NCBI GenBank assembly: GCA_020072565.1
Contig: JAIQGI010000022.1
Coordinates: forward strand, 1 to 64,000
Direction: 5' to 3'
From: Terriglobia bacterium
GTDB lineage: Bacteria > Acidobacteriota > UBA6911
Length of the DNA stretch: 64,000 nucleotides
Shown: positions 1,224-32,917 of the stretch, one piece after another
Layout: each line of letters starts with the position of its first letter
Numbering within the stretch: position 1 is the stretch's first letter
The notes under the pieces: model-generated
What the model saw: only the letters and a program-made list of their open reading frames with translations
The model's database searches: none
Told to the model about the DNA's origin: nothing
Made by a program: the position numbers and the translations under genes

Positions 1224-2036
1224 GTGAAATCTGTACGCGTGTCTGTGGTTCTGTCCACCATGCTTTTGAGCGGGTTCTCCCTCGGGCAGGTGGCGTCACC
1301 GGCTCCTCAAGCACAATTCCGTGCCTCTCAAGATCCGTCTCAGGTCTCGCCGCAACCTGCTCAAAAGCCGGATCCCACGCCGGATGAGATCATCCGGGCA
1401 TTCGCGGCCAAGGAGACGGAGTTTTATGAGGCGTGGATTCAATACGCCTATCGGCAGGATGCGGAGGTGCGCGTCCTGTCCGTCAATGGCAACCCCTCAC
1501 GCGAGCGTATGTCGATCGTCTCCGATGTCATCTTCCACGATGATGGCACCCGGGAGGTCCGCCAGATTCAGAACAGAGGCAAACTGAAGTCGGTTGAGTT
1601 TACCAGGGATGATGAAGAGGTAATCGACAACCTCCAGCCTTTCTCTTTGACTACCAAGCAACTCCCGCTTTACAACCTGAAATATGAAGGCAAAGAGAAA
1701 GTGGATGAGCTGACCTGCTACGTCTTCTCGGTAAAGCCGAAGAGCACAAAAGGGGGGAAGATGTACTTCGACGGGAAAATCTGGGTGGATGACGAGGATC
1801 TGCAGATTGTCAGGACGGTCGGCAAGCCCGTACCGGAGAAGAGGAATCAGCGATTCCCGGAATTCGAGACGCTGCGGCAGGTCATCGATCAGAAGTATTG
1901 GTTTCCGGTGTGGACACACGCCGACAGCGTTTTGGACTTCTCCCAGAACAGGGTTCGCGTAGAGGAAACCATTACCTACGAAAACTACCAACACTTCGAT
2001 TCGAAGGCAACAATCCAGTTCGGCCCCAAAAAATAG
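1224..2036 (+). CDS. secreted protein of unknown function, LolA/outer-membrane-lipoprotein-sorting-like
   Basis: This is a 270-residue protein starting at GTG, with GGGAGGG about 9 nt upstream. Residues 1-21 form a signal peptide ending near a Gln-Val cleavage region, followed by a Pro/Gln-rich linker (22-50). The remainder is mostly beta-strand, with a 'KYEGKEKVDELTCYVFSVKP' segment and 'GKIWVDDEDLQIVR'. These are typical of acidobacterial periplasmic proteins that resemble the LolA/RseB beta half-barrel fold. It probably acts in the periplasm, and the exact role is unknown. No operon partner is visible, and a 10-bp inverted repeat follows at 2130-2176. Confidence 0.65.
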   Translation: MKSVRVSVVLSTMLLSGFSLGQVASPAPQAQFRASQDPSQVSPQPAQKPDPTPDEIIRAFAAKETEFYEAWIQYAYRQDAEVRVLSVNGNPSRERMSIVSDVIFHDDGTREVRQIQNRGKLKSVEFTRDDEEVIDNLQPFSLTTKQLPLYNLKYEGKEKVDELTCYVFSVKPKSTKGGKMYFDGKIWVDDEDLQIVRTVGKPVPEKRNQRFPEFETLRQVIDQKYWFPVWTHADSVLDFSQNRVRVEETITYENYQHFDSKATIQFGPKK

Positions 2037-2129
2037 GGGACACGAAGAACCCGCGACGCCCCGGGCCCGTCCAGGGTGGGTGATCTCCTGAACGCCTCGA
2101 GGATACCCGGGAAACCGCGAAGGAACGAA

Positions 2130-2176
2130 GGCGCCAGGAAACTCCGGATTTCAGGGCGTCTTTTCGTCCTGGCGCC
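2130..2176. other. inverted repeat downstream of the 1224 gene
   Basis: Perfect 10-bp arms, GGCGCCAGGA at 2130-2139 and TCCTGGCGCC at 2167-2176, enclose a 27-nt loop. There is no T-run after it, so it is not a classical intrinsic terminator. It may stabilise the transcript end or be a repeat copy. Confidence 0.4.
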
Positions 2177-2304
2177 CTGGCGGTCACTTTATGCCGCTCA
2201 TCCTCAGCCTCGATCCGCGCCTGCGACACACTCAAAGATTCCTGCTGATCAACACCTGGTTACCAGATATATTGTCGAAGCCAGGCTGACTCATACGGAG
2301 ATTC

Positions 2305-2895
2305 ATGATGGCCGTACCGCGAAACATCGGCAGGTTTCTGGGTGAATTTTTGCTTCATCCGACGACGACAGGAGCCATTGCCCCCAGCTCAACGTACCTC
2401 GCCAGGAAAATGGTCGAGTGGATCGACCTGCCCAAGGCAAAAACAGTACTGGAATATGGTCCGGGCACGGGCGTGTTCACCGACCAGATCATCCGGCGCA
2501 TGCCGGCAGGTTCGAGGTTTGCGGCAATAGAACTTAACCACCGGCTGGCGGAACTGTTCAGGCGGCGCCATCCCGGTCTGACGCTGGTCGAGGATTCGGT
2601 GGCCAACGTGGGAGCCATCTGCCAAAGATTAGGTTTCGCGAGCGTCGATTGCATCGTGTGCGGCTTGCCCTGGGCATCATTCCCTAAGGCGGCTCAGACC
2701 CATCTTCTGGATCAAATGATGTCGGTTCTGAGCGCAGGAGGGCAATTCGTGACCTTCGCCTACCTCCAGGGTCTGCTATTGCCCGCGGGCAGGAGGTTCG
2801 CGGAACTTCTGCCCAATTACTTCACTCAGGTTTCAAAAAGCCGGACAGTATGGCTCAACCTGCCGCCTGCGTTCGTCTACCAGTGCAATAGATGA
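2305..2895 (+). CDS. SAM-dependent methyltransferase, phospholipid N-methyltransferase/rRNA-adenine-methylase type
   Basis: This 196-residue class I methyltransferase has motif I at 'VLEYGPGTGVFTDQI' (residues ~47-61) and the following acidic position 'AAIELNHRLAELF'. A motif IV-like 'VDCIVCGLPWASFP' follows. The N-terminus 'FLGEFLLHPTTTGAIAPSS' is what I know from PmtA-like phospholipid N-methyltransferases (COG3963), which methylate phosphatidylethanolamine at the inner membrane. It could equally modify another substrate. ATG at 2305 follows GGAG at good spacing, and a second ATG one codon later is also possible. It stands alone, with no lipid genes beside it. Confidence 0.65.
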   Translation: MMAVPRNIGRFLGEFLLHPTTTGAIAPSSTYLARKMVEWIDLPKAKTVLEYGPGTGVFTDQIIRRMPAGSRFAAIELNHRLAELFRRRHPGLTLVEDSVANVGAICQRLGFASVDCIVCGLPWASFPKAAQTHLLDQMMSVLSAGGQFVTFAYLQGLLLPAGRRFAELLPNYFTQVSKSRTVWLNLPPAFVYQCNR

Positions 2896-2906
2896 TGCCG
2901 ACAACC

Positions 2907-3307
2907 GGGCCCGGTCCCGAATGGCGCTTAATTAAAGAAACAGGGTGCGACCCTGGCGGGCTCACCCATTCCGGCGAGCCATCGGTTGTTGCAAGCCCCG
3001 AAGCCGTTGGCGGCCGCAAGCCCTGAAAGGGCGGCCGTAGTTTTCAGCCCAGGGCGCAAGCCCTGGGATAAGACGCAAATGATGGATGAGCCCTGTAGGG
3101 GCGATGCAGGAACGCTTGCAATGCCCCGATTACAAGGACCTTGCATCGCCCTTACAGGGCTCTGTTTGTTAATGGCCATCCATTCCCAGGGCTCACGCCC
3201 TGGGCTGCGGACTGCGGACGCCCCTTTCGGGGCTTAAGCCCTTGCTCCTGGTACGCTCAAGACGATTCCAATCACCCTTATTTAAGCGCCATTCGGCCCG
3301 GGTCCCC
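2907..3307. mobile_element. MITE-like element with terminal inverted repeats and internal palindromes
   Basis: The two ends are imperfect inverted repeats of about 29 bp (2907-2935 and 3278-3307). They share the core CCGAATGGCGCTTAA followed by an AT-rich run. Between them lie several short palindromes of the type CCCAGGG..GCAAGCCCTGGG (around 3045-3065 and again 3185-3205) and a related pair around 3090 and 3145 built on GCCCTGTA/TACAGGGC. No open frame looks coding. The size of about 400 bp, paired ends and lack of a transposase fit a non-autonomous miniature element that may have captured REP-like repeats. No clear target-site duplication was found. Confidence 0.5.
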
Positions 3308-3427
3308 CATATCATGAGAAGGGATTGCCGTGAGCGTGAATATTGGCATCCATGATGCCATGCTCACAGGACACCCCTCCATGCCTGGGAAATTGGCGCG
3401 GAAGAAAAACGGGGCACGGTTCGGGAG

Positions 3428-3817
3428 CTATTGTCCAGCCGTGCCCTCGACCTCAAGATGCGGAATGCCGGCAAAGTCGTTGGCATTGCGCGTCAAGAGC
3501 GTAGCTGCCATCGCAGCAGCGGTCACGCCGATGGCCACATCGGCCGCGCGCCGGCGTGGAGAGCCGAGACTTCGAAAAACATCACCGGCGATGCTTGCGA
3601 GCTCCTCCGAAAATGGGATGATTCCATCATCAAAGAAAAAAGAACGGGCGACGGAGAGCTGCTCCGGAGTGCGCGGGCCCCGGGAAAATTCGTACCAGGC
3701 TACGGCGCTCATCTGGAGGTCGGCTTCCGACTCAGCGAGCTGCGTCAGTCGGCGGCGCTCGCGCCCGGCTGAGGAAAGAGCGAATATCAAAAAGTCCGTG
3801 TCAATGTGGTAGCGCAT
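3428..3817 (-). CDS. vapC: VapC-family PIN-domain ribonuclease toxin
   Basis: This 129-residue PIN-domain protein begins 'MRYHIDTDFLIFAL', giving the first acidic metal ligand. It continues with 'VAWYEFSRGPR', which contains the conserved Glu, then 'AADVAIGVTAAA' and 'LLTRNANDFAGIP', which hold the later Asp residues. VapC toxins cleave tRNA or other RNA and are held in check by a co-encoded antitoxin. The start overlaps the antitoxin stop by one base (TGATG), so the pair is translationally coupled. All expected acidic residues look present, so it may be active. Confidence 0.85.
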   Translation of the reverse strand: MRYHIDTDFLIFALSSAGRERRRLTQLAESEADLQMSAVAWYEFSRGPRTPEQLSVARSFFFDDGIIPFSEELASIAGDVFRSLGSPRRRAADVAIGVTAAAMAATLLTRNANDFAGIPHLEVEGTAGQ

Positions 3818-4071
3818 CAGAAACCCTGATCCTGAGTCTTGAGCCGGCCGGTTTCTTCCTCCGCATCGTTGCCTTCAAAGAGCTTGAAAAGACGCTCGAG
3901 TACCCTGCGCCTTTCGTTTCGGCTCTCCACCGGGACTCCGAACACCGTATCCCTGTGGCGCAGCACTGCCCGCCGGATTGCCTCGGAGGTCGAGCAGCCA
4001 TAGCGAAGCGCCAGCTGGCGTGCGGCCTGCCTGGTTTCAGGATCCAGAATCAGTGTGGTCCTCTGTGACAT
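3817..4071 (-). CDS. vapB: VapB-like ribbon-helix-helix antitoxin
   Basis: This 84-residue protein has an N-terminal 'TTLILDPETRQAARQLALR' strand-helix segment and 'STSEAIRRAVLRH', typical of a ribbon-helix-helix DNA-binding domain. A charged C-terminal tail would bind and neutralise the toxin. It is the first gene of the toxin-antitoxin operon and overlaps the toxin start by one base. A palindromic operator overlaps its start codon, which fits the usual autoregulation by the antitoxin-toxin complex. Confidence 0.8.
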   Translation of the reverse strand: MSQRTTLILDPETRQAARQLALRYGCSTSEAIRRAVLRHRDTVFGVPVESRNERRRVLERLFKLFEGNDAEEETGRLKTQDQGF

Positions 4072-4089
4072 ATAATATGTTTAACATAT
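4069..4089 (-). promoter_or_regulatory. palindromic operator of vapBC
   Basis: Two nested palindromes cover the antitoxin start. One is CATAT-A-ATATG at 4069-4079, which includes the ATG. The other is ATATGTT-T-AACATAT at 4075-4089 with perfect 7-bp arms. AT-rich palindromes at this place are the known binding sites of VapB-type ribbon-helix-helix dimers. Binding here would block both promoter and ribosome access. Confidence 0.6.
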
Positions 4090-4474
4090 AACCATATTTG
4101 ATGCAATGTAAGTTGATGAAATAGGTGCAACAAATGCATGAGGCAACAGCCAAATGGGGAGCTTTTAATGGATCAGGGTAGGAATGTCTGAATGGGGCGC
4201 GCAGCCAACATCAGATTGCGCCTTATAAGCGTTGATATCCAGATGCACGACGGAAAAGCGGGAAGGAGGTGAGAAAATCCAGCGAGAATGGCGGATACGC
4301 TTCGCACCAAATCATGCTATTCTCACGTTGCGCTCTCAAAAGCGCATGGTCATCGAGTTTCACGTGAATTGCCCGACTGGCGGAAGCATCCGCCGTAATC
4401 GGCAATCACAGAAACGGTTCTTGGCCATGACCGGTTCATAAGGCTCAAGCGCCCCTGTCGCATGGGCGAGTAAC
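4090..4474. other. intergenic, no gene recognised
   Basis: This stretch separates vapBC from the divergent hypothetical gene at 4475. It holds an AT-rich segment upstream of vapB that probably contains its promoter. A small hairpin GGCGGA-AGCA-TCCGCC lies at about 4379-4394. Open frames here show no recognisable features. Confidence 0.4.
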
Positions 4475-4843
4475 ATGATCACAGACACTGCCTCCCCCTC
4501 ATATCGCACTCTCGGAGCGATAATCAGGCACGCGACCGGCCTGAGTGCGGTGCGCAAAGACGATCTGGAATTTGGAGATCTGGTTCTGGTCACCACCGCC
4601 AACTCGACCTACTCGATTTACGTTCTTGACGAAGGCTTCTATTCAATCTCCGGAGGCTGGTTTGACCGCCACGGCTTGTCCCCGATGACCACGACGATCG
4701 CCGGCTGCAGTTGGGGCGGCAGTACCATCAAGCTGGACATTATCGCAGCTTGCGGCTTGCATCTGGAATTCGGCAATCAGGTCGTAACCAGCGGGATCCG
4801 GAAGGTCGGTGTCATTCGATGCGAGGAAAAACGCTCGAATTGA
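4475..4843 (+). CDS. conserved hypothetical protein, 122 residues
   Basis: This small soluble protein has no signal peptide. Its middle reads 'FGDLVLVTTANSTYSIYVL', and later parts read 'GCSWGGSTIKLDIIAACG' and 'LEFGNQVVTSGIRKVGV'. I recognise this as a small conserved bacterial family with beta-strand-rich character ('vlVtT.nSvY.i.vl ... gss.gGs.ik.g.i..g...Ef'), but no function is known to me. The ribosome-binding site is weak (GGGCGAG). It sits alone between vapBC and the S9 peptidase on the other strand. Confidence 0.6.
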   Translation: MITDTASPSYRTLGAIIRHATGLSAVRKDDLEFGDLVLVTTANSTYSIYVLDEGFYSISGGWFDRHGLSPMTTTIAGCSWGGSTIKLDIIAACGLHLEFGNQVVTSGIRKVGVIRCEEKRSN

Positions 4844-5024
4844 ACCGGTAAAGAGGACACTTGCGCTGACGCGCCGTTGACTTTCCAGAAACCTATACCG
4901 CTGAGAACCACCCGCACAGGCCTGGCAAACTGCGATCCTCAGCACTGAAACCTCAGATGCAGGCAGCTCATGATCCGGGTTCATCTGCGGCTCCCTTCCG
5001 GATCGATGCGATTTCATCAAGGCA

Positions 5025-7397
5025 TTATCGACCGGGCGGCGTTCCTCCGCGCCCGCCGGCCGGCTGCTGCATCTGATACTCCTTGGGCGGTTCGACGCCG
5101 AGGAGCCACTTCACGAAGTAGTCCCAGCGGCGGCGCATCATGTATGACGACATGTTGCCGTAGCCATGAGCCTGGTTGGGCAGCAGCAGAAGATCGAAAT
5201 CCTTGTTCGCCTTGATCAACGCATCCACCACCAGAAGCGTGTTGTACGGCGGCACGTTGTTGTCCATGGTGCCGTGAGCGAGCAGCAGGTGTCCCTTGAG
5301 ATTCTTGGCGAGATTCTGGTTTGCCTCCGCGTCATAATTGTCGGTGCCATCGGCGTTCTTTATGAGCAGCCCTTGATAGCGCTCGCCCCAGTCGTCCTCG
5401 TACTCACGCTGGTCGTGGTTACCGGACTCGGCGATCCCGACCTTGAAAAAGTCGGGGTAGCGGAACATGGCATCGGCCGTGATGAAGCCTCCGCCGGAGT
5501 GGCCGTAAATCCCGACGCGGTCGAGATCGATCCATGAATACTTCTGGGCGAGCTCCTTCATCCCCGCCACCTGATCAGGGAGCGTGTTGTCGCGGCCCAT
5601 GCTGCCGTAATAAGCGTCATGGAACGCCTTCGAGCGGTCAGGCGTCCCCATCCCGTCGATCGTGACGACGACGAAGCCCAGCTCTGCGAGCGCCTGGCGG
5701 TCGCTTCGCGCCGGTGTGAAGGTTCGGGCGCCCGTGCTCCCCGACTGCGGCCCGGGGTAAGGGTTGTTGATGATCGGGTACTTTCTGGAGGGATCAAAAT
5801 TTGTTGGCCGGAACATCAGGCCGTAGAGGTCTGTCTTCCCATCGCGTGCCTTCACCGTAATCGGTATCGGCGGCTTCCACCCGGCGGCAAGCAGCTTTGA
5901 GATGTCGGCTTTCTCGAGCGGCATGACCAGCTTGCCGTCTCCGTCGCGCAGCGCCACGACCGGCGGCGCGTCGGGCTTCGAATAGGTGTCGACGAAGTAG
6001 TGACCCGAGCGCGAGAGCTGCATGTTGTGGTCGCCATCGTCGGGCGTGAGGCCCACATAGTGCGTTCCGTCCATGGCAATTCGGTAGAAGTGCCGGAAAT
6101 ACGGGTCTTGTTCCTTCTCGCGCCCCAGCGCCGCAAACCAGATCGTGCGACTCTTTTCGTCGACCCGCGTGATCTGAGTGACGGGACCCTCACCGGTCGT
6201 GATCTGATTCTTGAGCTTCCCCGTATTCAGATCGTAGAGGTAGAGCTGTCCCCAGTTGTCGCGCTGGGAATACCAGATCACCTCGCTCGTGGGCCAGAGC
6301 ACCTGCCAGCCGGTCCGGGACTCATAGTGCGTCGCCACCGTCTCGTCGAAGACCGTGCGCACGGTGCCGGCCGCGGCGTCGGCGATGCGGAACACCGCCT
6401 GCTTGTGGTCGCGTGAAGTCGAAACGAACGCAAGCCGGGTGGCGTCCGGGTTCCACTGCATGTCGCGGAGACTGAAGTTGTCGCCAAGGGTGGCGCGGTG
6501 ATAGTCGGGCGGCATCTGCAGCCGGGTGATGAGCCCGGCGTCGACATCGATGATGACCCGGTGGAGCATCGCAACCTCGCTGTCTCCCGGGAGCGGATAC
6601 TTCCAGGAGCGGAGGACGGGATGGCCGACCCTGGTCTCCACAAGATACATGTCACCGACCTTGCGCTCATCCTGCTGGTAGGTCGCGATCTTTTTCGAAT
6701 CGGGTGACCAGAGCACAATGGCGCGGTCGCTGCCGGCCCATCCGGCATTGTCGGTGGCGTATCCGAAGTCCTTGGCGCCGTCGCTGGTGAGCTGTTTCTC
6801 CTCACCCGTCGCCACGTCTCGCACCCAGAGGTTCCAATCGCGAATGAAGACGGCTCTCTTCCCGTCCGGTGATGCCACTGGGTTGCCGGCTCCACCGCCA
6901 CGACCGCCACCTCGCCCGCCCGCACCTGCTCCGCGCGTACCCTTGGCTTCACCGGCCGCGGTGCACTTGGCTCCCTGGACATCACATGCCCAGCGACGCG
7001 CTCCGACGTCGAACGAAACGGTAGTCCCATCCGAGGAGAAATCTATCGACACGAAGGGGAGCTGGCGCGCATTATACGTGGCGCCCGCGGCCGCAGACAG
7101 CGCCGCAGCCAGCCTGGCGTGGTCGAAGGCCGGCGCACGCGTCCGCTTTGCCGGATCGACAAGGACGAACTCAGGTCCTTCCGCCGTGGTATTGCGGTAC
7201 CAGAAACGCTCGTCCGGCAGCCAGGTGGCAGATACGTTGCCGCCAACGACGAGCGGCGTGACCGCAGGCCCAAGGAACTTCTCCGCATGCGCATAGTCGG
7301 CCGCGGTAAGAGCGCGCGGTTGTTGAGCCGACACCGGAGACACGGCGGCCACGATCGCCGCCAGAGTCGCAAAAAAAACACATGGTCGCATGTTCAT
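5025..7397 (-). CDS. secreted S9 family (dipeptidyl-peptidase-IV-like) serine peptidase
   Basis: This 790-residue protein has a signal peptide (1-24, ending 'PVSAQQ'). An N-terminal beta-propeller of DPP-IV type spans roughly 60-500, with repeats such as 'SPDGKRAVFIRDWNLWVRD' and 'WSPDSKKIATYQQDER'. A C-terminal alpha/beta hydrolase domain follows. The catalytic triad appears as Ser ~634 in 'YGHSGGGF', Asp ~712 in 'GTMDNNVPP' and His ~744 in 'NQAHGYG'. DPP-IV enzymes release N-terminal dipeptides, mainly Xaa-Pro, from peptides in the periplasm. Oddities are a Gly/Arg-rich insert near residues 150-170 and a Gly/Arg-rich C-terminal tail. It lies 12 nt downstream of the M1 peptidase on the same strand and probably forms a peptide-scavenging operon with it. 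Confidence 0.9.
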   Translation of the reverse strand: MNMRPCVFFATLAAIVAAVSPVSAQQPRALTAADYAHAEKFLGPAVTPLVVGGNVSATWLPDERFWYRNTTAEGPEFVLVDPAKRTRAPAFDHARLAAALSAAAGATYNARQLPFVSIDFSSDGTTVSFDVGARRWACDVQGAKCTAAGEAKGTRGAGAGGRGGGRGGGAGNPVASPDGKRAVFIRDWNLWVRDVATGEEKQLTSDGAKDFGYATDNAGWAGSDRAIVLWSPDSKKIATYQQDERKVGDMYLVETRVGHPVLRSWKYPLPGDSEVAMLHRVIIDVDAGLITRLQMPPDYHRATLGDNFSLRDMQWNPDATRLAFVSTSRDHKQAVFRIADAAAGTVRTVFDETVATHYESRTGWQVLWPTSEVIWYSQRDNWGQLYLYDLNTGKLKNQITTGEGPVTQITRVDEKSRTIWFAALGREKEQDPYFRHFYRIAMDGTHYVGLTPDDGDHNMQLSRSGHYFVDTYSKPDAPPVVALRDGDGKLVMPLEKADISKLLAAGWKPPIPITVKARDGKTDLYGLMFRPTNFDPSRKYPIINNPYPGPQSGSTGARTFTPARSDRQALAELGFVVVTIDGMGTPDRSKAFHDAYYGSMGRDNTLPDQVAGMKELAQKYSWIDLDRVGIYGHSGGGFITADAMFRYPDFFKVGIAESGNHDQREYEDDWGERYQGLLIKNADGTDNYDAEANQNLAKNLKGHLLLAHGTMDNNVPPYNTLLVVDALIKANKDFDLLLLPNQAHGYGNMSSYMMRRRWDYFVKWLLGVEPPKEYQMQQPAGGRGGTPPGR

Positions 7398-7409
7398 GAA
7401 TGGTCCTCG

Positions 7410-9041
7410 CTAATTCTTGATCACATTGACAAAATATAGATCGGTGGCTGCCTCAAAATCGTCCTTCTTCACACCCGATTTCATCGTCTTCCATTCCGTT
7501 GTGGGTTGAATAAGTTGCCAGTCACCTTTTCTTCCTACCTTCACAGGCATGGCAAATTCCTTCTCGTCGGCTTTCCAACGATAGGAAACAGTGCCGCTGT
7601 CTTGAAACTGTAATTCGAGCGTGGGGATGTTGGTGTGCCGCAGGTACTGGTCGAAAATCGGAGTAAGGTTCTTTCCGGTCTTGTCGTTGAAGAACCTCAC
7701 CACATCCTCGGTCATGATGTTCCTGTATTGGAAGCGGCTGTAGAAATCGTGCACGAGCTTCCACCAGCGTCCGTCATTGTCGATTACGCTACGAAGGGTG
7801 TTGAGGAAAAGCGCGCCTTTGAAATACATGTCCTGCGGCGGCGTGCTGTTCACACCAGGCTGAGAGATGATCGGCTGCTGGTTTCTGACCTTGGTCTTAT
7901 ACCCGTTGACATATTTCAGGGAGTCCTCGCGGCCGAACATGTATTCGACATACACAACTTCGGCGTAGGTACCCCAACCCTCATGGATCCACTCGTCGGA
8001 AGTATCAGCCGCCGTGATGCTGTTGCCGAACCACTCGTGGGCACTCTCGTGAATGATGATAAAGTCAAATTTCATGCTGACACCAACGCCCGTCCAGTCC
8101 CGCTCGAGATATCCGTTTGCGAAGTGGTTCCCATACGTGACGGCACTTTGATGCTCCATTCCCGAGTAAGGAACTTCGATGAGCTTGTAGCCATCTTCCT
8201 TGAAAGGGTACGCGCCGAAGTATTTCTGAAAGCACTGCATCATTGATTTTGCCTGCGTGAATTGCTGTTTGGCCTTCTCCAGATTCTCCGGCAGGCAGTA
8301 AAAATCGAGCGTCAGATCGTTCAGCCTGTCGCTGAAGTGAGCGTAATTGCCAATATTCAGCGAAACGCAGTAGTTGTTGATGGGGTAATGAATGAGCCAG
8401 TCATAACGGGTGTATCCGTCGCCAAGGTCGGTTTTGCCCAGGAACTGTCCATTGGACACATCCACGAGATTGCTGGGAATCGCCACGCTGAGGCGCATGT
8501 TTTCCACCTCATCACGCTGCTGGTCCTTGTTCGGCCACCAGACACTGGCACCAATTCCCTGACAGGCGGTATTGATCCAATCGCGGCCGGCAGGATCCTT
8601 CCTGAAGCCAATGCCGCCGAACCGTCCGGTTTGCACCGGATTGCCGGAATAGTAGAAATCGATCGTGTATATCGAGTTTTTTTTGAGGGTCTCGGGAAAA
8701 TCCACAAACACGGCATTGAACTCCCGCTCGTATTTCAGCTCCTTCGTTCCCAGCAGGATCTTGTCGACATTCAGATTGGCGACCAGGTCGACTTGAATGC
8801 GCACGTCGTCCTTCAGCATCTTGAAACGAATCGCATTCTTGCCGCTGATAAACTTTTTCTCGGGGTCGACGCGAACGTCGAGGTTATAAGAAAGCAAGTC
8901 GTTATTGGCCCGATAGGGCCCATAGGCGCCCCGAAGAATGTCGGCTCGAGTGACCGTCCTTTGTGGCGTTTGTGCCACAAGAAAAGTGGCCAGGCAAAGC
9001 AGAGAAGCAAGCGAAGGCTTGAGCAAGAGCTGTCCAGGCAT
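7410..9041 (-). CDS. secreted M1 family metallo-aminopeptidase
   Basis: This 543-residue gluzincin has an N-terminal signal peptide ('LLCLATFLVAQT'). The zinc site is complete: His331-Glu332-x-x-His335 in 'HESAHEWFGN', with the third ligand Glu354 in 'WIHEGWGTY', 18 residues later as expected for M1. The exopeptidase motif appears as 'GMEH' (residues ~294-297) where GxMEN is usual. M1 enzymes remove N-terminal amino acids from peptides. The C-terminal domain is short, as in bacterial cold-active or leukotriene-A4-hydrolase-like members. ATG at 9041 has AGAGGT upstream. It precedes the S9 peptidase by 12 nt. Confidence 0.9.
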   Translation of the reverse strand: MPGQLLLKPSLASLLCLATFLVAQTPQRTVTRADILRGAYGPYRANNDLLSYNLDVRVDPEKKFISGKNAIRFKMLKDDVRIQVDLVANLNVDKILLGTKELKYEREFNAVFVDFPETLKKNSIYTIDFYYSGNPVQTGRFGGIGFRKDPAGRDWINTACQGIGASVWWPNKDQQRDEVENMRLSVAIPSNLVDVSNGQFLGKTDLGDGYTRYDWLIHYPINNYCVSLNIGNYAHFSDRLNDLTLDFYCLPENLEKAKQQFTQAKSMMQCFQKYFGAYPFKEDGYKLIEVPYSGMEHQSAVTYGNHFANGYLERDWTGVGVSMKFDFIIIHESAHEWFGNSITAADTSDEWIHEGWGTYAEVVYVEYMFGREDSLKYVNGYKTKVRNQQPIISQPGVNSTPPQDMYFKGALFLNTLRSVIDNDGRWWKLVHDFYSRFQYRNIMTEDVVRFFNDKTGKNLTPIFDQYLRHTNIPTLELQFQDSGTVSYRWKADEKEFAMPVKVGRKGDWQLIQPTTEWKTMKSGVKKDDFEAATDLYFVNVIKN

Positions 9042-9480
9042 CGATGTACCTCTTGAAGGCTAAGAATTTTTCCATCCAGTTGCGGCAGTTCGGAAACAAC
9101 CTCTCAGGCACCGGGGCGCACCCTACGATGCATGAATGCTGGGATCTGCTGACGGGCTAAAGCCCGTGCCCCCTGAACTCTACCTAAGAGCCAGAGTTAG
9201 TGCCGGCATGTTTCTGCCCGTCAAGTTACACCAGTCATTTTCGAAGCGGAGCTTAGCATAGCTGAGCCGCACCAGGATCGGTAGTCTGTTTTTCTATGCT
9301 GAACCGATAATCATCGGTTGCGGCTGCGAATAAAATGTCGGGATATTATATGTAGGTGGTCTGCAGTTAGTCCCGATTCCTGCCGAAATTGGACGAGTCG
9401 AAAACAGTCGAAGTATGGGACGAAGACCGGGATGCCGGATCTGGTACAATCTGAACTACCACATCCCTTGAGGAGGTCGC
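9042..9480. other. divergent intergenic region with a short palindrome
   Basis: This divergent region separates the M1/S9 operon from the small secreted protein at 9481. It contains GGGCTAAAGCCC (near 9153-9164), a short palindrome of REP-like kind. A TACAAT at about 9445 could be the -10 of the plus-strand gene. No coding frame is convincing. Confidence 0.4.
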
Positions 9481-15251: not shown

Positions 15252-15293
15252 AACAAGCATTATAAAGGGGTGCGCCCCCGTCGGAGAGCACAA

Positions 15294-18200
15294 ATGATAA
15301 TTCGTAACCGACTCGTTCTTCCTCTGCTTTTGTGTCTGTGTGCGGCGCTGCTGGTCGCTTCCGCTCTTCCTTCTGCCGCTGAGGTTTCGCCGGTCAAGGC
15401 ATGGCAGGAGAATATCGTGATTCCGACGTACGAGGTCGGGCCGCCTGAGCGCAACCCGTTGTTCTTCTTCGGGCGGCAATCCCAGGGAGCCCAGGCGCCG
15501 GTATACCCCTATCCGATGTACGACACGCTCACGGGCAGGAAAGCAGACAAGACCTACCAGGCGGTCTATCTGGAGAACGAGTACATCCGCATCGGCATAT
15601 TACCCGAAGTCGGCGGCCGCATCTTCGAGGGTTTGGACAAGACCAACAACTACAATTTCATCTACCGCCAGCACGTGATCAAACCCGCCCTGATCAGCAT
15701 TATCGGCGCCTGGATTTCCGGAGGGATGGAGTGGAACATCCCGCACCATCACCGCGCGACAACCTTCCTCCCGGTGCAATACAAGATCGAGCAAGGCGGA
15801 GACGGCGCCAAAACCGTCTGGGTAGGCGAACTGGAATTGCGACAACGCATGCGCTGGGCGGTCGGCTACACGCTGAGGCCCGGCAAGGGCTACCTGGAAG
15901 CACAAGTGCGCATCTTGAATCGTGTCCCCGAACCGAACACCATGTTGTGTTTTGCCACTCTGGCCGTTCACGTGAACGACAACTACCAGGTCATCTTCCC
16001 GCCGGGCACGCAGTTCGGCACCGGCCACTCGAAGCGCACATTCACCAAGTGGCCGGTCAACGATGCCAATGTTGACGTCAGCTGGTGGAAGAACCACCCC
16101 TCTTCGGTCTCGATCTTCGCCTGGAACTACCAGGACGATTTCTTTGCCGGCTATGACCACGGCAAAGAGGCAGGGACGATGAGCGTCGCCGACCACCATG
16201 TCGTGCCGGGCAAGAAGTTCTTTGAATGGGGCGCCGGCGCCGGTGGCCGCGCGTGGGACCAGACTCTGACTGACACCGACGGCCCCTACATCGAGCTCAT
16301 GGCCGGCGCCTACTCGGACAATCAGCCTGACTACAGCTGGCTGCAGCCTTACGAAGTGAGGTCGTTTTCCATGAATTACTATCCCTTCCGGGACATTGGC
16401 GGGGTGAAGAAGGCCAACCTGGACGCGGCAGTGAACCTAGACATGGCCGACGGCACCGCCCGGATGGGCTTCTACACCACCTCCGCCCATGCGGCGGCCA
16501 AAGTCATGCTGAGAGCCGGACAAAAGATTCTGCTCCAGGAGACGGTAGCCATCAACCCGGGCAAACCTTACACCAGGCGGGTCCCAGTCCCTGCCGGCAT
16601 CGACGAGCACGATCTCGTCGCCTCGCTGGCAGATGGCAGCAAGGAACTCGTTTCCTATTCCCCCATCCGCTTGCACCCGGAACCAATGCCGAAGGGCGTG
16701 ACACCCCCGGCAGCTCCGGCGGACGTCAAGACCAACGAAGAGCTGTACCTGATCGGTCTGCGCGCGCAGCAGTTCCACGACCCGAATATCGATCCCGAGA
16801 CATACTGGGAAGAGGCGCTGCGTCGCGATCCGGGGGACGCCCGCGTCAACACCGCGCTCGGTATCACCGCCTTTAAAGAAGCAAGGTACGAAGACGCAGA
16901 GAAGCGCTTGCGCAAGGCGTTGGAGCGGCTCACGGACCAGTACACAACCCCGAAAGATGCTGAGGCGTTTTTCTATCTTGCGGCCACTCTGAAGGCGCAG
17001 GGCAAGACCGACGAGGCCTGCTCGAATTTCTACAAGGCCACCTGGAGCCAGGCATGGAAGGCAGCCGGTTACTTCTCCCTGGCAGAAATCGCGGCCGGAC
17101 GCGGTGACATGCCGGCCGCCCTCGACCTCATCGACCGTGCGATCGACTCGAATGCATTGAACATCAGGGCCCAGAACCTGAAAGCTGCCGTGTTGCGCCA
17201 CCTGGGACGCACACGGGAGGCGCTGCAGGTGCTGGCCTCAGCCGCGCACAAGGCCGATCCGCTCGACGTGCGCTCCATGGCGGAATTCTGGCTGGCATCC
17301 AGAAACCTCGCAGCGGCAATGACCCTGGCTTCCACGATGAATGAACATCCCGCGACCGCACAGGAGACGGCCGCCGAGTATCTCAACTCCGGCCTCTGGC
17401 AGGACGGAACGGATATCCTGCTGCGGATGACCGCCACTGCCCCCGACAAGGCCAGGATCAATCCCATGGTCTACTATTATCTAGGCTATTTTGCGGGGAA
17501 GCTGGGACAAACGCAAAAGGCGTCCGAGTACTACAGGCTGGCCGAGACGATGCCTCCTGACTACGCCTTCCCCTTCCAGAGCGAGGCCATCGAAGTGCTT
17601 CGGACCGCGATCAGGGCAAATCCCCGCGACGCACGAGCGCCCTACTATCTCGGGAATGTGCTGTACGACTGGCAGCCTGAGGAGGCCACCAGGATGTGGG
17701 AGGCTTCCGTCGCGCTCGACGCTTCGTTCTCGATCGTTCATCGCAATCTGGCAACGGCTTATATGCATCAGAGGTCGGGGACCAGCCTCGCCAAGGCCAT
17801 CGTGGAACTCGAGAAGGCGGTTGCGCTCGACCCCAAGTACGCCCTGCACTTTATGGAACTGGATGAACTCTACGAGCAGGCCGGCGTTCCCATCGAGAAG
17901 CGGCTCCCTCTTTTCGAAGAGAACGCGGCCGTGGTCGCGCAGCGGGATGACGCTCAAAACCGCGCCGTGGGTCTCAAAGTGGCCGGGGGCAAGTATGACG
18001 AGGCCATCAGGATGATGACGGGACGGAAGTTCGCGGTCGCGGAGGGCACCAATCTGAACGTGGCCGAGCACTGGATGGATGCGCACATTCTCAGGGCTCA
18101 GCAGAACATCGCGGCCAGGCGTTTCGAGGAGGCGCTGGCGGATATACAGATGGCCGTCACGTTGCCCCCAAACCTGCCGGCGAGCGGGTTCGGCAGCAGC

Positions 18201-18680
18201 GGCGGAGCGGGTGGCCGCAGCATAGAGGTCGCCTTCTGGACCGGCATCGCCTATGAGGGGATGGGCAACCATGACAAGGCTGCCGAGTCATGGAACAGGG
18301 CGATATCATCGGTTTCGTCCGGAACCGGCCGGCGCGGCGGAGCCGGGATTGCCACGGCTGCAGTCGGCGTTCAATCCTACTACCTGGCACTATCCCTCCG
18401 GAAACTCGGCCAGGAAGACCAAGCCAAGGCGTTGTTCCAGAGCCTCGTCGAGTCCGGACAGAGAACGCTCCAGCAGCCGCCGTCCAATATCGCCGGGGGG
18501 CGAGGCGGAGCAGGCCGTCAGCAGTCTCCGCGAACTCGATTGGCCAATGCCCACTACCTCGCTGGACTTGGCTTCCTTGGGCTGAACGACCTGGTTAAGG
18601 CGAAGACCGAACTGGCCGAGGCGGTTCAGGCTAACCCGGATCTCGTGGGCGCCAGGGCCGCCTTGGCCGCGCTCAAGTAG
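15294..18680 (+). CDS. secreted DUF5107 + tetratricopeptide-repeat protein
   Basis: ATG 15294 has GGAGAG upstream and begins a signal peptide ('LVASALPSAAE'), so I prefer it to GTG 15270. The protein has 1128 residues. Roughly 30-400 form a DUF5107 domain of galactose-mutarotase-like fold ('YIRIGILPEVGGRIFEGLDK', 'GGMEWNIPHHHRATTF'). The rest is a long array of TPR units, for example 'DARVNTALGITAFKEARYED' and later ones. DUF5107-TPR proteins probably bind or process carbohydrates, but no reaction is established. Three Gly/Arg-rich inserts interrupt the TPR part near the C-terminus (~18178-18230, 18320-18350, 18485-18520). Confidence 0.8.
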   Translation: MIIRNRLVLPLLLCLCAALLVASALPSAAEVSPVKAWQENIVIPTYEVGPPERNPLFFFGRQSQGAQAPVYPYPMYDTLTGRKADKTYQAVYLENEYIRIGILPEVGGRIFEGLDKTNNYNFIYRQHVIKPALISIIGAWISGGMEWNIPHHHRATTFLPVQYKIEQGGDGAKTVWVGELELRQRMRWAVGYTLRPGKGYLEAQVRILNRVPEPNTMLCFATLAVHVNDNYQVIFPPGTQFGTGHSKRTFTKWPVNDANVDVSWWKNHPSSVSIFAWNYQDDFFAGYDHGKEAGTMSVADHHVVPGKKFFEWGAGAGGRAWDQTLTDTDGPYIELMAGAYSDNQPDYSWLQPYEVRSFSMNYYPFRDIGGVKKANLDAAVNLDMADGTARMGFYTTSAHAAAKVMLRAGQKILLQETVAINPGKPYTRRVPVPAGIDEHDLVASLADGSKELVSYSPIRLHPEPMPKGVTPPAAPADVKTNEELYLIGLRAQQFHDPNIDPETYWEEALRRDPGDARVNTALGITAFKEARYEDAEKRLRKALERLTDQYTTPKDAEAFFYLAATLKAQGKTDEACSNFYKATWSQAWKAAGYFSLAEIAAGRGDMPAALDLIDRAIDSNALNIRAQNLKAAVLRHLGRTREALQVLASAAHKADPLDVRSMAEFWLASRNLAAAMTLASTMNEHPATAQETAAEYLNSGLWQDGTDILLRMTATAPDKARINPMVYYYLGYFAGKLGQTQKASEYYRLAETMPPDYAFPFQSEAIEVLRTAIRANPRDARAPYYLGNVLYDWQPEEATRMWEASVALDASFSIVHRNLATAYMHQRSGTSLAKAIVELEKAVALDPKYALHFMELDELYEQAGVPIEKRLPLFEENAAVVAQRDDAQNRAVGLKVAGGKYDEAIRMMTGRKFAVAEGTNLNVAEHWMDAHILRAQQNIAARRFEEALADIQMAVTLPPNLPASGFGSSGGAGGRSIEVAFWTGIAYEGMGNHDKAAESWNRAISSVSSGTGRRGGAGIATAAVGVQSYYLALSLRKLGQEDQAKALFQSLVESGQRTLQQPPSNIAGGRGGAGRQQSPRTRLANAHYLAGLGFLGLNDLVKAKTELAEAVQANPDLVGARAALAALK

Positions 18681-19850: not shown

Positions 19851-21962
19851 CTACTTTTTCGTGGCCGCCGGTTCCAGTAGTTTCTTGAACGCCTCATCGT
19901 CGGTCTTGAAGTCGCGCGCAGCCTGACCCACCCGGGTGATCCGGATGCTCCTGATCGCGTCGCCCTTCTTCACATCCTGAAGCAGGCTCAGCCCGGCAAT
20001 CACCTTGCCGATCGCGGTGGACTTCTTGTCGAGCCCCGGGCTCTTCTGGAGCGTGAGGTAGAACGCGTTCGGGGCCGAGACACCCAGGATGCCCACGACG
20101 TCATGCTTCAGCGTGGCATTGGCGGCAAACGGCAGGCTGGGGACTGCCACTGATTTCTGGATCTCCGACACGATGAGGCCGCTGATCAGCCCGTCTTTCA
20201 CGTCGACCGTGCCGATCGGCGGGATCTCCGGACGGGGTCCGCCGGGAGCGCCGGCCCCGCCACGACCGCCACCACCCGGAGCAGGGGCCGCACCGCGTCC
20301 GCCCGGCTGTTGTCCCTTGCCCTCGACGATTCGGATGAAGTTCGCCGTTTGCAGGGGCGCGTTCGCGTAGTCGAGTGCGGTCATGATGTGGATCGGGGCA
20401 TCCGCCGGCCCGATGGCAATATCGGCATACAGGCCATCAGCCAGGTAGACGCCATCGCGTGTGAGCGGCTTGTCGAGGTTTGCCACACCGTATGCAACCA
20501 CCGCGGTTACCAGCGCGGAATGCTGCTGGTGCTCGGTGTACGGAACGAGTTCGCTGTACGTGTCGTAGAGGGTATGCCAGGCGTGGTTGTATACATAGTT
20601 GGTCTGTGTCCGGAAGCTCAGCGTCGGCACGCTCAACATCTCGAATGACGAGGAGTCAGTGCCGCCCGGGCTTGTTGCGTGCGCCCTGGGCAAGCCTCGT
20701 TCGAGTTTGAACGGCCACTTCGGATTCAAATTGGTGAGCGGAGCGGTGATCTTCTGGAGATCTTCATACCAGGTTTCGGGCACAGACGCTCCGGTGATGG
20801 CGCTCGGGCTGCCGTCCCGGTTGATCATCATGACGATTTTCGGCTGGATTTCCGGGTGCTTTTTCAGCCACGACTGGGAGCCGAGCAGGCCGCTCTCCTC
20901 CGCTGCAAAAAGCATAAAGATGATGGAGCACTTGGGCCGTGCACCCGCTGCCTTGATGAGTCGGATCGCTTCCATGCCGGGCGCGAAACCCGACCCGTCG
21001 TCTACCCCGCCCGTAGCACCGCTGAAACAGTCGAAATGGCCGCCGATGACGACGTATTCGTCGGGGTACGTCGTGCCGCGCAGCGTCGCGACTACGTTGT
21101 GATACTTGATCGGGCCCATCTTGAACCAGTTGCGGATGTCGAACTCGAGCTCGACCGGTTCGCCCTTCTCTGCCAAGCCCTTGATTTCGTTGTACTGGTT
21201 CTCGGCCAGCTTGATGTCGGGCAGGACGGGCAGCCTGTCCCAGGATGCGACGTAGCCGTCCAGAATCCTGAACGGCTCCGTTTTCGACAACTGAATCGTG
21301 CCCAGGGCCCCGGCATCAACCAATGCTTTGGTGAGCGGCGGAATCAGTTGAGCATCGGAGTACTCCGGGGTGCCGCGGCGGCCATCGCGGCCAAATCCCG
21401 TGTTCTCACCAGGGATCAGCACCCAGGCTCCCTTAAAGGCACCCCTGTTCGCGTTGACTTCGGCAATCGCCTCCTGCACCGCCGCGCGCTTCTTCTCGAC
21501 GTTTTCAGGCGTTGCGTTGCGCCCCTGGATCGAGAACGGATCTGCCTTCAGGATGACCACCGGCCCGCGCTGCACGCCCTTTGTTCCGGCCGTGAAGCTC
21601 GGCGTCCCGAAAAAGAGCGCTTTCTCGGCCGGCTTGATCATCCTTCCAAACCATGGTCCACGGTTGAATCCGACCGGCACCTCGCCGACTTCGTCGAGTT
21701 CGGCGTCGAGGCCCCACTGCCTGAATTGCCAGACGGCCCAGGCAGTGGCGTCGCTATAAGCGTTCGTGCCCGTTTCCCTGCCGCCAAACCGGTTGCTGGC
21801 GTAGTCGTTCCAGGTCATGACCTGGTTGTCAGTCGTGCCCAGCTCGATGATCTTTTTGACGACTGGGTCTTCCTGTGTCTGGGCGGGCGCCTGAAAGCCG
21901 ACGGCGGCGGCAGCCAGTATGAGCAGGCCGACAACGAACCCTAGCGTACGTTTTCTCATCAT
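19851..21962 (-). CDS. secreted M28 metallopeptidase fused to a cyclophilin-like domain
   Basis: ATG 21962 follows GGAGG and starts a signal peptide; upstream in-frame codons are not coding. Total length is 703 residues. The M28 part shows zinc ligands in 'GGHFDCFSGATGGVDDGSG', the catalytic Glu pair in 'FAAEESGLLG', Asp in 'MINRDGSPS' and His in 'NHAWHTLYDTY'. From about residue 510 to the end a divergent cyclophilin domain is visible ('YANAPLQTANFIRIVEGKG', 'LKHDVVGILGV', 'AFYLTLQKSPGLDKKSTAIG', 'KVIAGLSLLQDV'), interrupted by a Gly/Arg/Pro-rich insert. Catalytic cyclophilin residues (such as the FxMQGGD core) are not preserved, so the domain is probably a binding module. It degrades peptides in the periplasm. 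Confidence 0.85.
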   Translation of the reverse strand: MMRKRTLGFVVGLLILAAAAVGFQAPAQTQEDPVVKKIIELGTTDNQVMTWNDYASNRFGGRETGTNAYSDATAWAVWQFRQWGLDAELDEVGEVPVGFNRGPWFGRMIKPAEKALFFGTPSFTAGTKGVQRGPVVILKADPFSIQGRNATPENVEKKRAAVQEAIAEVNANRGAFKGAWVLIPGENTGFGRDGRRGTPEYSDAQLIPPLTKALVDAGALGTIQLSKTEPFRILDGYVASWDRLPVLPDIKLAENQYNEIKGLAEKGEPVELEFDIRNWFKMGPIKYHNVVATLRGTTYPDEYVVIGGHFDCFSGATGGVDDGSGFAPGMEAIRLIKAAGARPKCSIIFMLFAAEESGLLGSQSWLKKHPEIQPKIVMMINRDGSPSAITGASVPETWYEDLQKITAPLTNLNPKWPFKLERGLPRAHATSPGGTDSSSFEMLSVPTLSFRTQTNYVYNHAWHTLYDTYSELVPYTEHQQHSALVTAVVAYGVANLDKPLTRDGVYLADGLYADIAIGPADAPIHIMTALDYANAPLQTANFIRIVEGKGQQPGGRGAAPAPGGGGRGGAGAPGGPRPEIPPIGTVDVKDGLISGLIVSEIQKSVAVPSLPFAANATLKHDVVGILGVSAPNAFYLTLQKSPGLDKKSTAIGKVIAGLSLLQDVKKGDAIRSIRITRVGQAARDFKTDDEAFKKLLEPAATKK

Positions 21963-31179: not shown

Positions 31180-31579
31180 TTTGCTCCTTTCGGCACATCC
31201 GGCTTCGAGGCCAAAAACGTCTACGGAGTGGTACTTGGCAATTACCAATGTGCCTGTTCCATTGTATGCGATTCAACCCAATCCTCGCCTTTATCTTATG
31301 AACTTCCGATTGGGAATTCAGCGGCAATTCCGCCGAATGATCCCTCGGGAAGGAAAAAGCATTGGGTTCATCATTTGCTAGCCATTCTGGCGGCCACATG
31401 GTGTTAGACTGCCGATATCCGAACACCGACGGCGAGCCGATCAGGGTTCGGCAACCGAAGTACTGAGAGGAGAAGCCTCAGAGGGCCGCGGGCGGCCCGC
31501 CGCAAGGCTATGCTTTGCGTTCAGCGCGGACTCTCTGCTTCGATCTGGGGCCACAATTCACTGGACTGGAGGAGACGTG
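31180..31579. other. divergent intergenic region
   Basis: This region of about 400 bases separates the sensor kinase and the M28 peptidase, which are transcribed outwards. Both promoters must lie here. I cannot single out a -35/-10 pair with confidence and see no repeat or coding frame worth reporting. Confidence 0.4.
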
Positions 31580-32917
31580 ATGCGAAGGAGATGGGCAGTT
31601 CTCGGGGCGCTGGTTGCCTGGATGTTGAGCACCCACGGCGTGGCCCGCCCCATAGCGTTCCAGGCACAGGCGGTTTCAGGGGCGCAGTCCGGCGCCGGCA
31701 GTGCCGGAGAGGACCCGGTGCGGCCGCTGGTCGGCCGACTCGACCTCGAGAAGTACAAGGCCACCATCAAGGGCTTGACCCAGTTCGGCGACCGCCGCCA
31801 GGGCACAGACCGTAATCGGGCCGCGAACGATTGGATTGAGGCTCAACTTAAGAGTTACGGCTGCTCCGACGTCGGGCGGATCAAATACGAGTATGCTCCC
31901 GCGGCGCGGGCCGGCGGGGCGGGCGAAGCGGGTCGCGGCGCCGGGGTCACATCTGGAGGCGGCAGGGGTGCCGCAGGTGCCGCGGCAGGGGGCGCCGGCC
32001 GCGGGGGCGCCGGAGCGACCGGCGCCCAGACGGCGGCAGCGCAAGGGCGTGGTCGAGGGAGCGCGAATCCCGTCAAGGGAAACCGCGGGCCCACCGGCGT
32101 GAACAACGACCCTGCCAAACAACCCGATCCGAAGATCCGCGAGCTCGATATGCAGCCGTCAACCCCGGGGCAGCGCGAGGAGGTTTATTGCACGAAAATC
32201 GGCTCGACACACCCGGAAGAGATGTATATCCTCGGCGGCCACATGGACGGCATCGGCTACGGGGAAGCTGCTAACGACAACGCGTCGGGTGTAGCCCTCG
32301 TGATGGAGTTGGCCCGCATCTTCAGCGCTCCCGATGTCAAGACCGACCGGTCGATCCGTTTCGTTTTATGGAACAACGAGGAGACGGGCCTCAACGGCGC
32401 GCGGACCTATGTGGAGCAGCGCGGGCCGTTACAGGGCAAGGAGGATCCGCCCGGGTCGGGCAAGTACCCGGAACCGAAATGGCTCGGTATGGTTCAGCAC
32501 GACATGATGCTGTACGATCACGGGATGCCCGGTCCGGACGGCAAACTCCCCGCGGAGCAGCGTGCCGAAGCCGACGTGAACATCGAGTTCGCTGCCGCGG
32601 CGAAAATGGGAGCCCAGGCTCAGGAACTTGCCTGGGTGTTCAAGAATGCGAACGACCGTTACGCGACGGACTACCCGGCGGTCGTGGGCAACCGCATGAG
32701 CAACACCGACTCCGCGGCGTTCCAGGACCTCGTCGCAGCCATCAGTCTGCGCGAGGCCGAAAGGCTGAGCCAGGTGGGAAGCGGTTGGGACCCGCACTGG
32801 CACCAGCCGACGGACGTCTTCACGACTTTTTCAGACAAGGACTTCCGTCTCGGCCTGAACGCTGCGCAGACGACGCTGGCGGCGATTGCGCAGCTCGCGG
32901 GTGCGAAGCTGAAATAG
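31580..32917 (+). CDS. secreted M28 family metallopeptidase with Gly/Arg/Ala-rich insert
   Basis: ATG 31580 follows GGAGGAG. The 445-residue protein has a signal peptide (~1-28). A prepeptidase region contains a long low-complexity Gly/Ala/Arg stretch (roughly residues 110-165). The M28 zinc core shows 'GGHMDGIGYGEAANDNASG' (His, Asp), 'LWNNEETGLNGA' (Glu-Glu), Asp in 'HDMMLYDHG' and the terminal His in 'PHWHQPTDVF'. It should be an aminopeptidase acting outside the cytoplasm. It differs from the M28-cyclophilin protein in lacking the C-terminal domain. Confidence 0.85.
   Translation: MRRRWAVLGALVAWMLSTHGVARPIAFQAQAVSGAQSGAGSAGEDPVRPLVGRLDLEKYKATIKGLTQFGDRRQGTDRNRAANDWIEAQLKSYGCSDVGRIKYEYAPAARAGGAGEAGRGAGVTSGGGRGAAGAAAGGAGRGGAGATGAQTAAAQGRGRGSANPVKGNRGPTGVNNDPAKQPDPKIRELDMQPSTPGQREEVYCTKIGSTHPEEMYILGGHMDGIGYGEAANDNASGVALVMELARIFSAPDVKTDRSIRFVLWNNEETGLNGARTYVEQRGPLQGKEDPPGSGKYPEPKWLGMVQHDMMLYDHGMPGPDGKLPAEQRAEADVNIEFAAAAKMGAQAQELAWVFKNANDRYATDYPAVVGNRMSNTDSAAFQDLVAAISLREAERLSQVGSGWDPHWHQPTDVFTTFSDKDFRLGLNAAQTTLAAIAQLAGAKLK

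Follow-up and report, generated by a model that had tools for sequence, protein, structure and literature searches.

A cyclophilin-like domain with an apparently degenerate isomerase site at the C-terminus of an M28 peptidase of Acidobacteriota

The stretch of DNA analysed here, termed the window (64,000 nucleotides, positions 1 to 64,000 of contig JAIQGI010000022.1 in assembly GCA_020072565.1 of a Terriglobia bacterium), carries an open reading frame in which an M28 peptidase is followed by a cyclophilin-like domain (Table 1). A fusion of this kind had been proposed in a preliminary description made from the sequence letters; the two parts were confirmed to lie in a single ORF, and the fusion recurs in relatives. 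The sequence GGAGG is located directly before two ATG codons, at 21962 and 21959. As several relatives of the window protein have MRKR as their N-terminus, the start codon is no less likely to be the second ATG than the first. Residues 1 to 27 are likely a Sec signal peptide, and the product would be exported to the periplasm or to the outside of the cell.

Table 1. Positions of the fusion gene and its parts in the window.
Feature	Residues	Window positions	Strand	Basis or remark
Complete fusion gene (M28 peptidase plus cyclophilin-like domain)		19851..21962	(-)	703 aa ORF
Putative Sec signal peptide	1-27	21882..21962	(-)	by eye: N-terminus basic, then hydrophobic; lipobox Cys absent
M28 catalytic domain	289-486	20505..21098	(-)	Pfam Peptidase_M28, E 3e-30
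Cyclophilin-like domain	508-703	19854..20441	(-)	Pfam, AlphaFold2, Foldseek, VIA-align, hhalign
Gly/Pro/Arg-rich loop	551-581	20220..20312	(-)	between first cyclophilin helix and strand 3; mostly predicted disordered
C-terminal tail, GQAARDFKTDDEAFKKLL...	679-703	19854..19928	(-)	common to CYN-FKBP proteins after the cyclophilin domain (alignments)

The Peptidase_M28 match in the window protein scored 105.8 bits against a curated cut-off of 21.3 in Pfam, and the M28 family was matched in all 21 fused sequences of the family described below at E 0.01. When aligned with 3iib and with part of GCPII, the window protein has residues at all metal-ligand and catalytic positions (H309, D321, E355, E356, D383 and H463), and these residues, together with D311, are each retained in 24 of 24 aligned rows, the window included. 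We take them to represent the two-zinc ligands H, D, E, D and H and the catalytic E of the family, and the assignment of single residues to either zinc is likewise assumed. The M28 half looks catalytically intact by these alignments, and the protein would act as an exopeptidase. In a Foldseek search with the full-length model, the first rank was taken by 3iib (E 2.1e-21), followed by aminopeptidases and GCPII. The M28 fold and the metal and catalytic residues are thus shared with the M28 exopeptidases (Shewanella 3iib, 2ek8, PaAP, GCPII), whereas the C-terminal domain is helical in GCPII and a cyclophilin in the fusion. 3iib, the related aminopeptidases and GCPII carry a PA domain; the Pfam PA model gave no match in the window fusion protein. 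The full-length model had a mean pLDDT of 75.4 and a pTM of 0.71 and came with no inter-domain error estimates, so that the arrangement of the domains cannot be read from it.

The C-terminal domain was modelled with AlphaFold2 from residues 495 to 703, with 20 relatives in the alignment. The preliminary description had let its proposal of a cyclophilin fold at the C-terminus stand or fall with such a prediction, and an eight-stranded barrel was obtained: the model shows eight strands of at least 5 residues each, with helices, in cyclophilin order, at a mean pLDDT of 82.4 and with values of 90 or higher for 110 of 209 residues. Compared with solved cyclophilins by VIA-align, the model reached Z scores of 14.2 to 15.1 across the 50 matches listed, where matches less than 1 Z apart are regarded as tied; over 128 to 147 aligned residues the rmsd was 2.4 to 2.9 for most of these matches, with a single one reaching 4.5. 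Of the 50 titles listed, 41 name a cyclophilin or prolyl isomerase; the other nine belong to spliceosome complexes, one HIV-2 capsid entry and an engineered protein with an uninformative title. Foldseek with the same model gave a probability of 1.00 for the best 50 matches, with E values from 2.4e-7 to 8.3e-6, and again 41 of 50 titles name cyclophilin or prolyl isomerase, the rest being large complexes and similar entries; the superpositions that it produced fitted loosely, with TM-scores by query of 0.46-0.54 and rmsd values of 4.3-9.3 in the 50 matches listed, and the fit by VIA-align was tighter.

In the sequence, Pfam Pro_isomerase (PF00160) matched residues 628 to 677 of the window protein at 1.2e-5 and 26.0 bits, above the cut-off of 21.7; the E value was 4.7e-7 when the C-terminal piece was scanned alone. 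Among the fused rows, only 13 of 21 matched this family at E 0.01 or better. Profile alignment of the 21 fused domains with seven cyclophilins of the CYN-FKBP type by hhalign gave a probability of 99.8 and an E value of 5e-29 over 179 columns. Chance resemblance to cyclophilin was ruled out by this alignment and the fold. Structural positions of the barrel, Gly130 and the Phe of helix 1, are retained in 21 of 21 fused domains. The details of the preliminary description needed small corrections: residues 510 to 703 do correspond exactly to 20435..19854, but the domain starts at about residue 508, and the sequence strings that it cited are all present, but ITRVGQ, given as the end of the protein, is followed by 23 more residues, mostly predicted helix.

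A contig search with the domain alignment yielded 21 loci, and all 21 have M28 sequence in frame before the domain; the gene start is missing in L070 and L084 and the gene end in L086 owing to contig ends, and L086 was left out of alignments A3 and A4 for this reason. A one-genome accident, a frameshift or an assembly join was ruled out by the presence of the 21 loci in different records. By record title, the loci span Candidatus Aminicenantes, Vicinamibacterales, Holophagales, other Acidobacteriota and one member of Longimicrobiales (Gemmatimonadota). In the window's phylum, where up to 8 candidates per genome were scored, at least 11 of 396 genomes carry the fusion, namely the window's own genome (G000), a congener with the gene cut by a contig end (G001), G336, G280, G231, G301, G363, G322, G273, G256 and the divergent G304; the two sets overlap in at least six of the eleven (G336/L071, G280/L074, G301/L080, G231/L081, G322/L082 and G304/L088). 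Within the window's order, the fusion is limited to the window's genus (2 of 15 genomes). Horizontal transfer may have been involved, since the window protein resembles that of the Aminicenantes locus L069 no less closely than that of its congener, but the trees disagree on its placement. Helical-repeat cyclophilins (L002, L004, L057, L058, L065 and L068) were set aside, as they were judged by reading to be repeat proteins with ordinary cyclophilin domains and not peptidases.

Variants of the gene arrangement were seen at single loci. L083, from an acidobacterial MAG, carries tandem fusion genes (1914-4289 and 4129-6573), the first with a longer Gly/Ala/Pro loop. The next gene after the fusion is an M28 peptidase without the domain at L074:6601-8556 (Pfam), at L075:3060-4964 and in L044, where the frame is cut by the locus end. 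A Na+/H+ exchanger (Pfam) lies beside L069 and is held in common with L071 and L072 only.

The prolyl-isomerase site was compared by aligning the 21 fused domains with five CYN-FKBP cyclophilins. None of the 21 fused domains has Ala101, Asn102 or the stretch from Asn108 to Gln111, all of which are deleted. At His54 all 21 have G or A, the Phe60 column holds G, K or R and Phe in none, and neither Gln63 nor His126 occurs in any of them. The Arg55 column, where the alignment is unsure, is T, K, A or Q in 19 domains and R in two. In contrast to the fused domains, the CYN-FKBP cyclophilins keep R55, Q63, A101, N102 and Q111 in 5 of 5 rows, and F60 and H126 in 3 of 5. As A101, N102 and Q111, which presumably line the classical cyclophilin groove, are absent, the classical site cannot be intact in the fused domains by this alignment; binding of a peptide without isomerising it would be possible. 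According to PMC4898713, Arg55, Phe60 and Gln63 are most important, and His54, Gln111 and His126 contribute.

The loss of catalytic residues noted in the preliminary description thus extends to all 21 aligned domains, none of which has an intact isomerase site. The role offered there, an isomerase presenting proline-containing peptides to the peptidase, does not agree with the deletion or replacement of isomerase-site residues in every one of these domains. An active prolyl isomerase that assists the peptidase with proline peptides would find support in the cyclophilin fold and in the Leu122 position, retained in 18 of 21 rows; given the same losses, we consider it highly improbable. As a comparison, human PPIL4, in which Arg55 is altered, reportedly has no PPIase activity on standard peptides (PMC12865271). 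The eukaryotic PPIL4 and PPIL6 resemble the fused domains in combining a cyclophilin fold with altered catalytic residues, and PPIL6, annotated as 'probable inactive', accounts for two of the six PDB sequences matched by the fused-domain profile; the two differ from the fusion in being eukaryotic and in their other partner domains. In PPIL4 and PPIL6, the 101-111 region is not known to be deleted.

The relationship of the domain to other cyclophilins was examined in a tree of 47 domains (21 fused, 7 CYN-FKBP and 19 other), drawn with midpoint rooting and no outgroup. The 26 non-fused domains came from 25 of 28 loci scanned, and nothing passed in L008, L055 and L067. The fused domains formed a single clade (100/100), whose stem measured 1.18 changes per column, and together with the seven CYN-FKBP cyclophilins they were set apart from the 19 other domains at 99/96, so that the CYN-FKBP cyclophilins are the nearest to the fused domains in the tree. 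CYN-linker-FKBP (CFBP) proteins are described as dual-family immunophilins in PMC6316441. Of the seven CYN-FKBP-type proteins in our set, three were scanned, and Pfam cyclophilin and FKBP_C were found in all three. They share with the fused domains an N-terminal [DN]G[LVI]YA motif, with F for Y in one of five aligned rows, and a C-terminal A-x-x-F tail; by hhalign, the similarity runs past the barrel through the tail, RVGxxAxxF. The two types differ in that the cyclophilin continues into FKBP in the CYN-FKBP proteins, whereas the fusion has the M28 peptidase on the N-terminal side; the Pfam FKBP_C model, scanned at E 1, was not matched in the window protein, which ends after the tail. The CYN-FKBP rows nearest to the fused domains (94/87) are L003, from the window's own genome, and L054. 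Their genes (L003:970-2082 (-), and L054:1042-2193 (-) of G167) have His at Phe60 and Tyr at His126. As these two are already altered at both positions, site erosion may have begun before the fusion, though this is a hint only.

On the peptidase side, the closest relative found without the domain was WP_005861636.1 from Parabacteroides (Bacteroidales), with a similar gene in Phocaeicola. It is 44% identical over residues 13 to 506 and ends 3 residues later, at the start of the domain (tblastn, plasmids); it stops at the junction without a cyclophilin domain, and scanning it with the fused-domain profile at E 10 gave no match. Identity to domain-free acidobacterial M28 relatives was 23-31% by the first BLAST segment (25 rows). 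Absence of the domain was checked by profile in 29 loci at E 10, where matches occurred solely in five known fused frames. In the peptidase tree without the Bacteroidales row, the fused rows were separated from the 25 domain-free rows at 100/100; with this row included, they were held together in only 44% of bootstrap trees. Thus, a single gain is no longer clearly favoured on the peptidase tree once the Bacteroidales row is included, and Bacteroidales may equally well have lost the domain or be a sister that never had it. In the history that we propose, a cyclophilin of the CYN-FKBP type would have been joined C-terminally to a secreted M28 zinc exopeptidase, probably once and before the present families diverged, and would then have lost its isomerase site to become a pseudo-enzyme.

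Selection on the parts of the gene was estimated as NG86 dN/dS for pairs among 16 orthologs. The median pairwise value was 0.187 for residues 34 to 285 (120 pairs), 0.179 for M28 (119 pairs with usable dS) and 0.265 for the cyclophilin core (120 pairs). The cyclophilin domain is under purifying selection, with a constraint slightly below that of the peptidase. Since the domain evolves faster than the peptidase and has a long stem in the cyclophilin tree, it could be a neutral leftover, a spacer or stability domain without a binding function that is kept by packing against the M28 domain; the small share of invariant positions, 26 of the 209 window positions of the aligned C-terminal piece across 21 rows, points the same way. 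However, the domain is kept in several orders and two phyla, as named in record titles, at the median dN/dS given above, and its conserved tail motif reaches beyond the barrel, and we regard this explanation as unlikely.

The Gly/Pro/Arg loop that the preliminary description had recognised as an insertion is present, predicted to be disordered and variable across relatives. In the domain model, a pLDDT below 50 was found solely at model residues 57 to 79, corresponding to residues 551 to 573. Complete loops are 12 to 35 residues long and variable in sequence among 24 aligned rows; that of L010 is cut at 13 by a contig end. The three versions of the loop in Holophagales (14-19 residues) are hardly Gly-rich. 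Some secreted M28 aminopeptidases shed a C-terminal propeptide, and the fused domain may be a cis-acting aid to folding or secretion of a related kind, an intramolecular chaperone or C-terminal pro-domain that the peptidase would require during folding and that is possibly clipped off at this disordered loop thereafter. Refolding of a model protein was promoted by domains of CYN-FKBP proteins (PMC6316441). Nevertheless, the loop follows helix 1 inside the domain, not between the domains, so that clipping would leave a piece of the barrel attached; the loops of L085 and L087-L089 have just 12 to 19 residues, and the related Bacteroidales peptidase manages without the domain. A folding aid is therefore judged unlikely.

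We suggest instead that the domain is a pseudo-cyclophilin which a secreted exopeptidase has domesticated for docking or assembly, as a module without catalytic function, a reading to which we give an even chance of being right as a whole. Through this module the peptidase would attach to a partner, to a second copy of itself in a dimer, or to a substrate protein, and the module would occupy the C-terminal place that in some other M28 proteins is taken by a helical dimerisation domain. Docking or assembly is preferred for two reasons: the fold and the tail are conserved in the absence of a conserved active site, and M28 relatives, among them GCPII with its helical C-terminal dimerisation domain, dimerise through the C-terminal domain. 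Against it, docking is indicated neither by a partner nor by a recurring neighbour: across 17 of the 21 loci and 22.5 kb of the window, none of the genes next to the fusion is found family-wide, and most sharing is between near relatives. Alternatively, the domain could confer specificity or gating, with the altered face of the barrel binding a peptide or protein and thereby switching or targeting the attached zinc exopeptidase. This is a doubtful proposal in our view. The ligand could be, for example, a secreted partner rich in proline or glycine, or else the protein's own Gly/Pro/Arg loop or that of another copy; if the proposal were true, the peptidase would be steered by a repurposed immunophilin.

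Both families are known, and the M28-cyclophilin architecture appears to be new as a variant of them, though it may already stand in domain databases. Each of the 50 sequence matches listed for the window protein covers either the peptidase or the cyclophilin stretch, never both. The impression of an unusual architecture in the preliminary description is shared by us, as no paper describing a fusion of M28 or another peptidase with a cyclophilin was found in the literature searched; nor was a description found there of the joint, its spread and the uniform loss of the isomerase site. The fusion provides a bacterial case in which a cyclophilin has apparently become a pseudo-enzyme joined to a second enzyme. 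Both parents have likely relatives at hand, the CYN-FKBP cyclophilins and the Bacteroidales peptidases without the domain, and the contribution of the domain is therefore testable by truncating the protein at one residue.

The window holds several peptidase genes. Among them is a second M28 peptidase gene (31382-32914 (+)), which gave no cyclophilin domain match at E 1e-5. Gly/Arg runs were also found in 2 of 28 other non-overlapping window ORFs of at least 250 codons (5028-7409 and 15252-18677), and such runs are therefore not unique to the fusion protein within the window; the rule used for these runs is strict, and the fusion's own loop, which holds residues with D/E side chains, was not flagged by it. 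One of the runs, of 19 Gly, Arg and Ala residues, lies in a DPP-IV/S9 prolyl oligopeptidase-type gene that adjoins an M1 aminopeptidase gene (window 5028-9059 (-)). A large DUF5107-TPR protein, encoded at 15270-18680 (+), has Gly/Arg-rich inserts that resemble the loop of the fusion.
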